A DNA stretch of 54,599 nucleotides from Candidatus Sulfotelmatobacter sp. (GTDB lineage: Bacteria; Acidobacteriota; Terriglobia; Terriglobales; Acidobacteriaceae), in the NCBI GenBank assembly GCA_030038125.1, contig JASHPL010000018.1, positions 1-54,599 of the forward strand, in the 5' to 3' direction. The position numbers and the translations under genes are program-made. Shown in pieces: positions 455 through 36,372 of the stretch. Within the stretch, counting starts at the first letter, position 1, and each line of letters begins with the position of its first letter. Below the pieces are notes generated by a model, which was given only the letters and a program-made list of their open reading frames with translations, did not search any database and was not told the DNA's origin.

Positions 455-2845
455 CTAAGCCGTTTTCCGGCGAAGAGCAGGAATCAGCGCCCAAGCGGAA
501 GCGTAGGCGGCTGCTCCGCACGCCAATGTCACGGTCAGTCCGAACTGGATGGCGATCACCATCGCCAGCACCGATCCCAGCACGCTCGCTGCAGCGTTCA
601 TCGCCCATGCCCATTCAATTGTGTTGTCGGTAGACGAAGGATGGTGCGGAACTTGAATGTCGGCTAACGCGCGCAGGCCAGTAGGAAACGGCATCCCCAT
701 GACGAATCCTAGTGGGATGAGGAGCACGCCGCTAATCAGCAGGCGATATTCAAAAGGTAATCCTACCAGTCCCGCCAGCCGGGCAGGCAGGAGGAATACA
801 TACGTCAATAGCGTAGCAACCACCAGAGCCAGCGGCAGCGCGCCCATTTCCGTCTGTGGCAGCCACAGGCGTGAGAACAGACTCCCCGCGCCGCTCGACA
901 GCAGCAGCAAAAAGATCACCATCGTCAAGGCGTAGGTGGGATGGCCGAGGAACAATACAAATCGCTGGATAAACGCAATTTCAACCAAAATGTAACCCAA
1001 GCCGATGGCAATGAAATAGAGCAACGGAATCGGCGAGTGACGCGCGTTCCCGCGCTTCAGAGCGAGCGGCAGAATCAGGAAGACTGTCACCGCGCACACG
1101 GAGACGATCAGCACCACCGCTAGCACAACCACACCCAGGTTTACTTTCCAATCGATGCCTTTTCGCAATCCGTTCTCGGTAAGGACTTGCCAAGGTCTCA
1201 AGGTGAAGAAAAAGAAGGGGGCATTATCGCTGACCGGCGCGACGTTATAGGCGTAGCCGCGCGCAAACCCGACAGGATCGTTGCTCGTAATCAGATCGGA
1301 AAACGGATTCCGACCCGGTTGCGACGGCAAGTACAGCGCGTTCAACACCGGATAGCGCACGAGACTCGAGCGTGTGGCAGCTTCCTCGTCTGCGGTAAAT
1401 GGCGACTTCTTCGCCAGAACCACGACCGGAATGCCATCGGTGTTGAGCTCTCCTTGCGAGGCGACAATGAAATGGTTAGCGGGATTGGCCACTCCCAACT
1501 GGTGCAAAGCGGCCATCGCGACCGCAACCACGCGCAACGCTTCCCGTGGGTGGCGGAACTCCCAGCGCGTAATCGCAACCATACCATCCGGTTTAAGATG
1601 CTCGAAGTACTCGCGGAATGCTTCGACGGTATACAGGCTGTTCTCACTCAGAGCGAACGCACCGGCCGCGGTGGAAGCCCAGGTGTCAACCAGAGTCATC
1701 TGCACCACGTCGAAGTGCTCCGTACTGGAGCGCAAGAATGAGCGGCCGTCACTGACGTGAATGTGGACTTCCGGCAAAAGATACAGGCGCTGGGAGTAGT
1801 CCGCGTAACGCTCGCGCATAATCGTGGTGGCGATGATGGGATTGATTTCAATTCCGGTTACGCTGGGGCTGCCATTGGCGACCGCGCGCAACACATCGAC
1901 TCCGCCGCCGGGGCCGATGATCGCGAAATCGCCGTGCGGTCGCAGAACGTTCGCCAGTGCCGGCGGGGCAGACATGAGATCGCGTTCCCACTCCGTTTCG
2001 TGCCATTTCGCGAGCTCCGCATTCATGATGTACGTAGAAGCGTCGGCGTCGATGACGATGGCCTTGGCCAGCCCCTGCCGATCCACTTCGACGCGGGAAA
2101 TGGCGTTCCATTTGGCGAACTCGACCCATGCCGGGTCGCGGAACATTCCCTTGGCGTAAACCACGTCGATCAAACGCCCGTTGTGATTCGTGGCTATGAG
2201 CAGGGCGAGCGTCAGAACCAACAGCGCCCCGCTGCGGCGCATGAACGGAGATTCTGACCAGATCATCGCCGCGATAGCCAGCGCAATCGCAGCCGTGAGA
2301 ATTGCGTTTGGTCCACCCACCCAGTTCAATAGCGGCACAACCGCAAGACAGGCTAAGGCTCCGCCGCATAGATCGGCCCCGTACAGCCGCGGTATGTGCT
2401 GCGATTCGCGTGCAAATACAACCGAGAACAGAAGCCCGGTCAAAAAAAATGGAATCGCCGCCGCAAGGTACATCGCCGTCAGTCGCAGGAAATTCTTCCC
2501 CGAAACATCGAGTGAAACGGGAATGTGCAACACAATTTCCAGCACCACCACCACAACGACCACGTTCGTCAGGCAGAGGCAGGCTGCCAGGCGGCGCGTT
2601 TCGATACGGGTCAACCGGGATTTCAGCAAATATGCAAAGACTCCGCCGGCTCCCATCCCCAGCAAAGCAATCGAAATTGCGAGAAACGCAAAATGATAAA
2701 AGAGCACGACCGAGAATAACCGGGTGAGCGAAAGCTCGAGCAGAAGAGCCGCAAAACTGGTGAGCGCCAGACCTGAAAGTAAGGTTCTTTCCGGAATTCT
2801 CCCCCGAATTGAATCAGAAGAAATCTGCGGAGAGGCAACGGCCAT
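455..2845 (-). CDS. Polytopic membrane protein with embedded spermidine-synthase-like methyltransferase-fold domain
   Basis: A 796-aa protein. Several hydrophobic helices occupy roughly residues 20-230, a soluble Rossmann domain roughly 250-500, and another block of helices about 540-790. The middle domain has the nucleotide-binding loop FAIIGPGGGVDVLRA, the acidic end of strand 2 (TGIEINPII) and a VSDGRSFL motif, as in spermidine synthases and SAM methyltransferases. At the usual catalytic Asp position it reads MTLVDTWAS rather than a D-x-x-D-P type motif, so ordinary aminopropyl transfer is doubtful. The C-terminal membrane part carries the sequence GLGYILVEIAFIQRFVLFLG, typical of this membrane family. 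Such fusions are widespread and their substrates are mostly unknown. The ATG start is the first Met of the frame. It lies 120 nt upstream of the MCE gene on the same strand. Confidence 0.75.
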   Translation of the reverse strand: MAVASPQISSDSIRGRIPERTLLSGLALTSFAALLLELSLTRLFSVVLFYHFAFLAISIALLGMGAGGVFAYLLKSRLTRIETRRLAACLCLTNVVVVVVVLEIVLHIPVSLDVSGKNFLRLTAMYLAAAIPFFLTGLLFSVVFARESQHIPRLYGADLCGGALACLAVVPLLNWVGGPNAILTAAIALAIAAMIWSESPFMRRSGALLVLTLALLIATNHNGRLIDVVYAKGMFRDPAWVEFAKWNAISRVEVDRQGLAKAIVIDADASTYIMNAELAKWHETEWERDLMSAPPALANVLRPHGDFAIIGPGGGVDVLRAVANGSPSVTGIEINPIIATTIMRERYADYSQRLYLLPEVHIHVSDGRSFLRSSTEHFDVVQMTLVDTWASTAAGAFALSENSLYTVEAFREYFEHLKPDGMVAITRWEFRHPREALRVVAVAMAALHQLGVANPANHFIVASQGELNTDGIPVVVLAKKSPFTADEEAATRSSLVRYPVLNALYLPSQPGRNPFSDLITSNDPVGFARGYAYNVAPVSDNAPFFFFTLRPWQVLTENGLRKGIDWKVNLGVVVLAVVLIVSVCAVTVFLILPLALKRGNARHSPIPLLYFIAIGLGYILVEIAFIQRFVLFLGHPTYALTMVIFLLLLSSGAGSLFSRLWLPQTEMGALPLALVVATLLTYVFLLPARLAGLVGLPFEYRLLISGVLLIPLGFVMGMPFPTGLRALADIQVPHHPSSTDNTIEWAWAMNAAASVLGSVLAMVIAIQFGLTVTLACGAAAYASAWALIPALRRKTA

Positions 2846-3011
2846 AAATGAATATGAGCCGACAGTCTAGCAGAAGACACCACAACAGAATGGCTTGCAG
2901 AAGGCGCAAGTCGTCGAAGCGGGTCCGAGGGGTCGTCACGGATTTCCGCGGGATTCCGAGGGATTGATCCAGATTTATCCATGAAGATCCCTGAAATCCG
3001 CGGCGTTCTTG

Positions 3012-5654
3012 TTATCGTTTTGTTTTCGCCGGTTCTTTCTCGCCCACGCGCTGGCTGACTTCGAACTTCATCTTGCCAGCCCGCTTGTCGGCATCGACGA
3101 TCACATGATCGCCGTGCAGCACTTCGCCATCGAGGATTTTCAGTGCCAGCGGATCTTGAATCAGCTTCTGGATTGCTCGCTTCAGCGGCCGCGCTCCGAA
3201 ATTCGGATCGAAGCCCTCGGTGAAGAGCAAGTCTTTCGCGGCATCGGTCAGTTCAAGCGAGATCTTGCGATCAGCCAACAGCCGGCGCACATCTTCCAGG
3301 CGTAGTTCGATGATTTTGACCAATTGCTCCTTCCCTAGCGGGTGGAAGACGATAATATCGTCCACGCGGTTCAGGAACTCTGGCCTAAAGTGTGCATGCA
3401 GAAGATTCAGGACCTGTTTCGTAGCTTCCTCGAGGTCCTGCTCCGAACGCAGATTTTCGGCCTGGAGGAGTTGTGACCCGATGTTCGACGTCATGATAAT
3501 GATCGTGTTCTTAAAGTCGACAACGCGCCCTCTCCCGTCGGTCAGTCGGCCGTCGTCCATGATCTGCAGCAGAACATTGAGCACGTCGGGATGGGCTTTT
3601 TCGATCTCGTCGAAAAGTACAACTGCGTAGGGACGTCGGCGCACTTGTTCCGTTAATTGCCCGCCTTCCTCATATCCAACATATCCTGGCGGGGCACCGA
3701 TGAGGCGAGCCACAGAATGTTTCTCCATGTACTCGGACATGTCGATGCGCAACAGCGCGTGCTCGTCATCGAATAGGAATTCGGCGAGCGCGCGGGCCAA
3801 TTCGGTTTTCCCGACACCCGTCGGTCCCAAAAAAATGAAAGACCCGATCGGTCGCTTGGGATCGCTTAAACCCGCTCGCGAGCGACGAATGGCATTGGAA
3901 ACGCGCTCCAGGGCCGCATCCTGGCCTACCACTCGCTGGCGCAGCCGGTCTTCCATGTTGATCAGCTTCTTGACTTCGCCTTCGAGCATTTTGGAGACAG
4001 GAATGCCAGTCCACTTCGACACAATACGCGCGACATCTTCCTCATCGACTTCCTCTTTGAGCATGCGGGACTGACCCTTGCTCTCCATCTGTTGGGTAAG
4101 CTTGGCCAGTTCCTTCTCCGTTTGCGGAATAAGGCCGTAGCGGATCTCAGCCACACGCTCGTTGTTGCCCTTGCGCAATTCTGCTTGCTCGTCAACTTTC
4201 AGCTTTTCGATTTTTTCTTTGAGCTCTCGCGCGCGTGCGATTTGCTCCTTCTCTTTTCTCCAGTTCGCTTTCAGCGCGTTCGAGCGCTCGCGAATCTCTG
4301 CCAATTCTTTTTCAATCGCACGGAGACGGTCCTTGGAATTGGGATCATCTTCCTTCTTCAATGCCTGCTTCTCGATTTCCAACTGCGTAGCCCTGCGTTC
4401 GAGCTGATCAATATCCGTCGGCAGGGAATCGATCTGGATGCGCAACGATGCCGCGGCTTCATCAATCAGATCAATGGCCTTATCCGGCAAGAAACGATCG
4501 GAGATATAGCGATGCGAGAGCGTGGCGGCGGCTACAATCGCCGAGTCCTTGATGCGCACGCCATGATGGACTTCGTACTTCTCCTTCAGGCCACGCAGAA
4601 TCGCAATCGTGTCTTCGACGTTTGGTTCGCCTACGAAAACGATCTGGAAACGACGCTCGAGCGCAGCGTCTTTTTCGATGTACTTACGGTATTCGTTCAG
4701 CGTGGTGGCGCCAATGGCGCGCAGCTCTCCGCGAGCCAGCGCCGGCTTCAGCATGTTGGACGCGTCAATCGCGCCTTCCGCCGCGCCAGCCCCAACCAGT
4801 GTGTGCAATTCGTCGATGAACAGAATGATCTGCCCCTGAGAATCTTCGATTTCCTTGAGAACAGCCTTGAGCCGATCTTCGAATTCGCCACGATATTTCG
4901 CACCCGCCAGCATCGCTCCGAGATCGAGCGCGACCACTCGCTTGTTCTTCAGAACTTCCGGAACGTCGCCGGAGATGATGCGCTGCGCCAGGCCTTCAAC
5001 GATAGCGGTCTTGCCGACCCCCGGCTCGCCAATGAGGACTGGATTGTTTTTCGTGCGCCGGGAAAGCACCTGAACCACGCGGCGGATTTCTTCGTCACGT
5101 CCGATGACAGGATCAAGTTTTCCGCGCCGTGCCTGCTCCGTTAGATCGCGGGCATAGCGTTCCAAAGCTTGATACTTGGCCTCGGGATTCTGATCCGTGA
5201 CTTTCTGGGATCCGCGGACAGCCGTCAGCGCTTTCAGAATGGCGTCATACGTCGCCCCGTGACGCGAGAGAATCTGCTGAGCCGCGTCCTGCTTCAGGTG
5301 TGTAATGGCAAGCAGCAGGTGCTCGGTGGAAACGTATTCATCCTTGAAGTTGGAAGCTTCTTTGAAAGCTTGATCAAGCAACTTGTTGGTGGTGTTTGAC
5401 AGGGTGGGCTGCGCGGATTCTCCGGACACTTTGGGCAGCTTTTCCAGTTCGCGATAGACCTCGTTTAGTACGGCCTGAGGCCCAACCCCGATTTTCTCAA
5501 GCACGGGTGGAACGATGCCTTCGTGATCTTCAAGCAATGCGGCGAGTAGATGCAGGGGCAGAAGCTCGGGATTGCCATGCTCGCTGGCGAGCTGGCTGGC
5601 GCGCTGGACGGCCTCCTGCGCTTTTACGGTAAATTTGTCCCATCGGATTGCCAC
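3012..5654 (-). CDS. clpB: ATP-dependent disaggregase ClpB (Hsp104 family)
   Basis: An 880-aa cytoplasmic hexameric AAA+ chaperone that pulls aggregated proteins apart together with DnaK and small heat-shock proteins. The N-terminal Clp repeats ([19 protein letters not shown]) are followed by the first AAA+ module (Walker [10 protein letters not shown], Walker [10 protein letters not shown]), the long middle coiled coil (about 410-530, rich in K/E/R) and the second module (Walker [10 protein letters not shown], Walker [12 protein letters not shown]). It ends with the ClpB small domain. Length is normal and no key motif is missing. The start is GTG, with AGGAG 7 nt upstream. It follows a retropepsin-like gene and hsp20 on the same strand, a coherent proteostasis block. 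No CIRCE element was seen upstream. Confidence 0.97.
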
Positions 5655-35384: not shown

Positions 35385-35786
35385 CTATCTCTTCCGCCTG
35401 CGCAACGCGGATTGCGCCAGCCGATTGGCTTCGGCGTTATTCTCGCGGGGTACGTGCGAGATGGAAAACATCAATGCCCGAGCCAGCTTGCGGCAGGTCC
35501 AGTGCAGCGAATACAGACGCGGACTGCGGCAGGTATATTCGCCGGTCATCTGCCGCACGACTACTTGCGAATCCGAATAAACATGCAATTTGCGCGCCTT
35601 CAGCTCAACCGCGTACTGCAGAGCTTCCATCAGCGCCGCATATTCCGCCACGTTGTTGTCCTGATGGCCTATCCACTTGGCGATGCGAATTGGTCCACTG
35701 TCGCATCCATTGATGACCACCCCAATACCCGAAGGCCCGGGATTTCCCAAGCTTCCGCCATCAACGTAAGCCACGAGTTCATGCAT
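35385..35786 (-). CDS. Ribonuclease HI family protein
   Basis: A 133-aa RNase H fold protein that would cleave RNA in RNA-DNA hybrids. Catalytic Asp in VAYVDGGSLGNPG, Glu in NNVAEYAALMEAL and Asp in VYSDSQVVVRQM are present. The fourth carboxylate position, usually Asp in a motif like NxEAD, reads NAEANRLAQ, so Asn replaces Asp. The start MHELVAYVDGG fits the family best; the track start 15 codons earlier is possible because neither has a convincing ribosome-binding site. The name rnhA is withheld because this belongs to the short RNase HI-like group, not the E. coli type. Confidence 0.85.
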   Translation of the reverse strand: MHELVAYVDGGSLGNPGPSGIGVVINGCDSGPIRIAKWIGHQDNNVAEYAALMEALQYAVELKARKLHVYSDSQVVVRQMTGEYTCRSPRLYSLHWTCRKLARALMFSISHVPRENNAEANRLAQSALRRRKR

Positions 35787-36120
35787 GGCTTTGGAATTCA
35801 CCGTCTTGTGCAAGTTCGAAGATGCGCCCATCGTGTTCTCGCGTCAAGATGATTATTTGATTCCCTTTCAGCTGTTTGCGGTTTTCCCCACCTCTGTGCA
35901 ATTTTATGTGCAAAATGCGACGGAATTCCCTGTAGTCGGCATTAAGTTTTTGGCTGACAGTCATTTGGAATCTGCGTTATGCACAGGTTTGAGGGCCAGC
36001 CTTGCACCAAAAGTTTGCGTTGACTTTTATGAACGCTCTGTTAACTTGACATCGTCGACGGTCGAAAGGGTTGGCACAATAATACTGAGCCGGTCCAAAG
36101 TAGACTGGGTGATTAGCCGG

Positions 36121-36307
36121 GTAGAGTAATCTACTAGGCAACTGAACCTGAAAAAACCGACGGCTCTGCGAGGGGCAGTTGGGGTTCGGAACTGCGAAAG
36201 CAGTAATCGCATCAGAGGGCTGTGACGGTACATGCCTCCATGTTGTTGGCTTCCTCGCAGGAGCTGGCGGCTAGAGCATAACCAATGTCGCAGCCCTTTT
36301 AATTTTT
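36121..36307 (+). ncRNA. Candidate structured non-coding RNA with terminator-like 3' end
   Basis: The 586-nt gap between two minus-strand genes has no supported ORF but a dense run of stems on the plus strand. H1: GTAGA-GTAA-TCTAC (36121-36134, GNRA loop). H2: CTGAACC with GGTTCGG (36142-36148 / 36183-36189, 7 bp with one wobble), enclosing CTGC/GCAG. H3: ACTGC-GAAA-GCAGT (36191-36204, GNRA loop). H4: AGAGGGCTGTGAC with GTCGCAGCCCTTT (36214-36226 / 36287-36299, 13 bp with two wobbles), enclosing ACATG-CCTC-CATGT and a GCT-CCT/AGG-AGC hairpin, i.e. a three-way junction. TTTTAATTTTT runs along and past the end of H4. It does not match the motifs I can recall for tmRNA, RNase P, SRP RNA, 6S or GEMM riboswitches. 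Exact 5' end and promoter are unknown. Confidence 0.5.
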
Positions 36308-36372
36308 CCCCCCCATACCCCGTAAAGTCCTTCGCTCTACCAATTCACATCAATTCGAATCTTCGCATACCG

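Follow-up and report, generated by a model that had tools for sequence, protein, structure and literature searches.

Is the strongly folded stretch at 36121–36307 a genuine RNA gene, and if so, does its product control an adjacent gene or act elsewhere? The window analysed here is a 54,599-nt stretch of a Candidatus Sulfotelmatobacter contig (JASHPL010000018.1). A first-pass annotation of its sequence had proposed an orphan, undescribed RNA at this place, with two GNRA hairpins, a three-way junction and a U-rich end.

Extent and folding of the RNA gene

We observed that the plus strand of 36121–36307 folds with −76.1 kcal/mol (z = −4.5) and that none of 200 dinucleotide shuffles was equally good; the minus strand reached a z of just −1.7. 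In the homolog alignment both limits of the conserved unit are sharp, with an abrupt 5′ edge at 36053. The gene thus spans 36053–36308 on the plus strand (∼255 nt), from a predicted +1 at ∼36053 to ∼36308, where the U-rich terminator tail stops. This full RNA folds with −103.1 kcal/mol (z = −5.09 versus shuffled controls), so the strong fold claimed earlier was borne out for both lengths. The coordinates required correction, as 36121–36307 covers roughly three quarters of the conserved RNA and cuts off its 5′ part, just upstream of which lie the −10 and −35 elements.

No reading frame is conserved among the copies, and the longest closed ORF is very variable from copy to copy (at most 74 codons). 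Since indels disrupt the frames and none is kept among the homologs, a protein-coding reading was ruled out, in agreement with the ORF-free description given before. A possible Shine–Dalgarno mimic (GAAAGG...GGUGAUC) was also considered and dropped, because its second stretch pairs in P3 and varies.

The Rfam 15 covariance models, scored against their gathering thresholds, gave no match in the window and none in eight divergent loci. When the cut-off was relaxed to E ≤ 10, the RNA locus returned only a chance match to mir-2114 (E = 1, 17.6 versus 94 bits). ARAGORN detected no tRNA or tmRNA in the window, and we found no open-access paper describing this RNA. A predicted promoter and terminator of its own, a conserved structure with covariation, and the lack of a conserved ORF together mark a stand-alone structured non-coding RNA gene. 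Judged from these sequence properties, the locus is a genuine, independent and previously uncatalogued structured RNA, and the proposal of an undescribed orphan RNA passed every computable test that had been named with it.

Secondary structure and covariation

We assessed the structure in 96 non-redundant homologs (mean identity 76%) that had been aligned without the use of structure. A model of 83 pairs in 13 helices was 95.9% paired in these homologs, and sliding one strand by 1–3 columns reduced this value to 31–47%, a control that is biased towards the model because the 31 homologs used to build it lie mostly within the set of 96. The counts of double compensatory changes are the stronger evidence for the fold: these changes occurred in 55 pairs and 463 cells, against 28.3 ± 2.8 pairs and 131.7 ± 16.9 cells in shuffles. 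Support from covariation or pairing extends to all 13 helices, P3 included, and compensatory changes are present in the 13-bp and 7-bp helices singled out earlier as well as in nearly all others. A fold kept with such extensive covariation is not due to chance; these patterns support strong purifying selection on the structure.

The 5′ domain (36059–36107) consists of P1 (36059–36063 × 36103–36107) and P2 (36068–36075 × 36089–36096), and covariation was found in both helices. The two strands of the internal loop between them read GAAA in 95 and RAAGUA in 85 of the 96 homologs, a combination that resembles a bulged-G (sarcin–ricin-type) loop.

The central domain (36109–36210) is closed by P3 (36109–36114 × 36205–36210), which is 97.9% paired with double changes at three pairs, and whose 5′ strand falls outside 36121–36307. 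P3 encloses P4, P5 and P6, and this four-way junction is the actual multibranch junction of the RNA. The P4a/P4b hairpin (36116–36139), in which all seven pairs covary, carries the GNRA tetraloop GUAA at 36126–36129; the loop is GNRA in 95 of 96 homologs, with a variable second base. The P5a/P5b/P5c arm (36142–36189) has an invariant GAAAAA bulge and ends in the hexaloop UGCGAG. In the P6 hairpin (36192–36203) three of four pairs covary, and the tetraloop, GAAA at 36196–36199, is GNRA in 93 homologs and GAAA in 92.

The 3′ arm P7–P8–P9–P10 (36216–36297) is followed by the U-rich tail (36298–36307). Its basal helix P7 (36216–36229 × 36281–36297) is 99.2% paired, with double changes in 9 of 11 pairs. 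The three-way junction described before, with a long helix enclosing two hairpins, has to be redrawn, as P7 closes one irregular arm, P8–P9–P10, in the 96 homologs. Among the elements proposed before, both GNRA hairpins were recovered, as were the long GC helix, the U-rich end and the 7-bp helix that has a stem inside it; the helices named were thus real, but the inventory lacked P1, P2 and the kissing-loop interaction described below.

Complementary hexaloops and a self-complementary 5′ end

The P5c hexaloop (UGCGAG, 36167–36172) is the exact complement of the P10 hexaloop (CUCGCA, 36254–36259), its predicted partner. Full six-pair complementarity was observed in 87 of the 96 homologs, and one copy (L226) has UGCAAG × CUUGUA, that is, one full double change plus one G·U pair. 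A few outliers, such as L192, L216, L198 and L206, have lost it. We infer from the complementarity and the single compensated variant that the two hexaloops may kiss.

A second complementary element, GUCGAC, lies at the 5′ end (36054–36059). This hexamer is self-complementary in all 139 distinct copies (GUCGAC in 130, GUCGAU in 5 and AUCGAU in 4), and G–C to A–U double changes occurred in three lineages, with G·U intermediates. As far as the sequences tell, both contacts would fit equally within one RNA molecule or between molecules.

It is possible, therefore, that the palindromic 5′ end and/or the hexaloops pair between molecules and give a homo-oligomeric RNA in the manner of OLE, ROOL and GOLLD, a reading we hold only tentatively. 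The invariably self-complementary hexamer with its double changes argues for it, as do the exact complementarity of the hexaloops and their compensated variant. On the other side, the kissing loops suit a single molecule equally well and are lost in the outliers named above, while the hexamer might instead serve as a DNA operator (+2 to +7) or reflect P1, in which base 7 also pairs. OLE, ROOL and GOLLD, which form cages, are also considerably larger than this ∼255-nt RNA. There is a precedent for such an assembly in GOLLD and ROOL, which are built by intermolecular kissing loops (PMC12286853). The likeness to these RNAs lies in the ornate fold, in the putative kissing loops and in complementary elements through which homo-oligomers could form; no Rfam model matched the present RNA. 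A bolder version appears doubtful to us: a hitherto unknown class of ornate RNA, small at 255 nt, would form homo-oligomers (RNA or RNP) through the 5′ palindrome and hexaloops, and its gene copies would be under separate control, some of it housekeeping and some CRP-type.

Promoters and terminator

We surveyed 134 full-length copies for a sigma70-type promoter, defined as TTGACA with 0–1 mismatch, a 16/17-nt spacer and TANNNT. Such a promoter was present in 121 of them, where shuffles expect 1.7. In the window, the −35 element is TTGACT (36020–36025) and the −10 element TAACTT (36042–36047). The −10 element starts at −12 relative to +1 in 117 of the 121 copies and at −11 in the other four. 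A TTGCACC box (36002–36008), a putative activator or UP-like site, begins 18 nt before the start of the −35 element, and 108 of the 121 copies have it (≤1 mismatch) at exactly this distance.

Nine copies without a −35 element (L201, L205, L206, L204, L226, L216, L053, L148 and L192) have instead a TGTGAN6TCACA-type site (0–1 mismatch) that starts at −48 to −50 and is centred at ∼−41. A site centred near −41 is the arrangement of class II CRP-activated promoters. Our reading of the nine as putative class II promoters draws mainly on this fixed position and on the coincidence with the loss of the −35 element; two more CRP-like matches at ≤2 mismatches look like chance, as the shuffle mean at that cut-off is 4.9. 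The genes beside these copies are varied: ribonucleotide reductase and a phosphoribosyltransferase-like protein next to L226, an S30AE/cold-shock protein and nicotinate phosphoribosyltransferase next to L216, and a cNMP-binding regulator next to L204. They are suggestive, and no more, of energy or stress control. These promoters on a minority of the copies provide a first physiological handle on the RNA.

The copies have U-rich 3′ ends, and the RNA finishes in a terminator-like stem followed by a U tract. Conservation and covariation support a role for P7 as a putative terminator stem as well as a scaffold.

Genomic neighbourhood

A terminator-like stem and U tract at the end of the RNA would also be expected of a cis-acting riboswitch or attenuator, in which P7 opens on binding of a ligand and lets the polymerase into the downstream gene, and about half of the loci do have a next gene that runs in the direction of the RNA. 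We consider this reading very improbable and have rejected it. Among 116 copies, the next downstream gene shares the strand of the RNA in 56 and is opposite to it in 60, and in the window itself it is convergent. No gene family is constant downstream of the copies. As the downstream genes follow no rule in either orientation or kind, the RNA is not a riboswitch; moreover, P7 is among the best paired helices, and we saw no conserved pairing that might compete with it.

The upstream side is more regular. In the window, the RNA is divergent from rnhA (35385–35831, minus strand), which encodes an RNase HI-like protein (RVT_3, 1.3e-21; RNase_H, 1.1e-12). By eye, the position of the usual last catalytic Asp reads Asn in this protein (NAEANRLA). 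Of the 126 full-length copies whose flanks were long enough, 86 (about two thirds) have rnhA as a neighbour, at a distance of 0.1–0.7 kb, mostly 0.1–0.3 kb, and always in divergent orientation. The recurrence of this layout in many genera might indicate that the RNA regulates rnhA or is a partner of RNase HI. We regard this as unlikely: 40 full-length copies lie elsewhere, all copies found in genomes G128 and G148 being of this kind, descent alone can give conserved synteny, and the RNA is transcribed away from rnhA and so is not antisense to it.

Copies occur both in tandem and dispersed. On a weakly resolved tree, the label rnhA or elsewhere changes at least 15 times, and hence the copies have probably moved or duplicated repeatedly.

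Distribution and copy number

We found 139 distinct near-full-length copies, usually 1–4 and up to 5 per genome. A DNA search matched the own genome at three sites, one of which is truncated, and 59 of 150 genomes from its family. Covariance models (R1, then R2 with divergent members added) detected the RNA in 32 of 40 chosen genomes, with 1–4 copies each. Of the 397 genomes in an order-wide scan, 108 were positive; every one of them belonged to this family, and they included 29 of the 34 genomes of the same genus. A sample of 347 genomes across the phylum gave no occurrence outside the one family, the large searches having used strict filters that very divergent relatives may escape. Within the genomes searched, the RNA thus appears confined to one Terriglobales family (Ca. 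Sulfotelmatobacter/SbA1-type MAGs), across which it is widely conserved. The named carrier contigs are MAGs of Candidatus Sulfotelmatobacter, Acidobacteriaceae SbA1 and other Terriglobales.

Two matches came from another family, f88 (genomes G874 and G834). The G874 locus is 99.7–100% identical over 3 kb to an own-genus contig (L231), and its RNA is therefore mis-binned or very recently transferred, most likely the former. An Acidiferrum contig (L077) has the same sequence as the G874 locus. A phage origin was ruled out, as nine pattern matches in IMG/VR contained the RNA in none of them and are due to chance.

The multiple, dispersed copies could alternatively be those of a mobile or selfish REP/SINE-like repeat that spreads with its own promoter. 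Some copies are internally deleted or 5′-truncated while keeping one or both ends (L072, L073, L102, L106, and L003/L035 on contig C327 of the own genome), and one copy away from rnhA (L207) has an IS1595-type transposase (2470–3459) beside it. The deleted and truncated copies may be decay products or assembly artefacts. We find this alternative improbable, since the copy number is low, the main site beside rnhA is kept in two thirds of the copies, the structure is under strong purifying selection, no enzyme family is associated with the repeat and promoters differ between copies.

Proposed mode of action

With somewhat better than even confidence, we take the locus for an independent gene whose product is a compact RNA that has a tertiary fold, acts in trans and is conserved within one Terriglobales family. 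Action in trans seems likely because the downstream gene is not constant and the dispersed extra copies have different promoters. RNA polymerase would start at ∼36053 from the strong sigma70-type promoter, aided by the TTGCACC box, and transcription would end at the P7 stem and U tract. The product would fold into three domains. The first would be P1–P2 with the bulged-G-like loop; in the second, the four-way junction at P3 would bear the variable-GNRA hairpin P4, the P5 arm and the GAAA hairpin P6; the third would be the P7–P10 arm. The P5 and P10 hexaloops would kiss. It would be an abundant structural or regulatory RNA acting in trans, probably complexed with protein and/or itself, most copies being constitutive or growth-linked and others under a CRP/FNR-type regulator. 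The abundance, the partners and the dual regulation belong, like the action in trans, to the inferred part of this scheme. A point against this reading is that some RNAs of high complexity, also with varied neighbours, have turned out to be catalytic or mobile.

Few RNAs of this size match such tertiary-type conservation (an invariant A-rich bulge, GNRA loops, kissing loops and a bulged-G-like loop). Known cases of it went along with growth-phase control, catalysis or large RNPs. The locus adds a well-supported, uncatalogued RNA family to abundant and poorly studied soil bacteria, and the alignment, promoter and pairing map render it directly testable.

Comparison with known RNAs

The RNA is not a member of raiA/ModT, the ornate RNAs or any Rfam family tested. 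The raiA-motif model, taken to be in Rfam 15, gave no match at the locus at E ≤ 10. The raiA-motif RNA, or ModT, is a stand-alone, compact, multi-helix, trans-acting RNA of ∼200 nt with tertiary contacts (PMC11706538, PMC12286853). It shares with the present RNA this stand-alone, compact, multi-helix style, but is found in Bacillota and others and has other neighbours; no shared helices were seen. By analogy, the most likely description seems to be a structural or regulatory RNA that acts in trans and is comparable in style to raiA/ModT (PMC11706538) or to the ornate RNAs (PMC12286853).

Acido-1 (RF01686) is likewise an orphan structured RNA of Acidobacteria (PMC2864571), with a model of 64 positions. 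It had no match at the RNA locus or in the own genome, and the control genomes gave none either. 6S RNA is also a stand-alone small RNA of similar size; its fold differs from that of the present RNA, which is multibranched with GNRA loops and kissing loops. Identity with 6S (RF00013) was ruled out, as these genomes carry 6S as a gene of its own: the single 6S gene of genome G000 lies at a different locus (C224:20092–20281, 58.7 bits).
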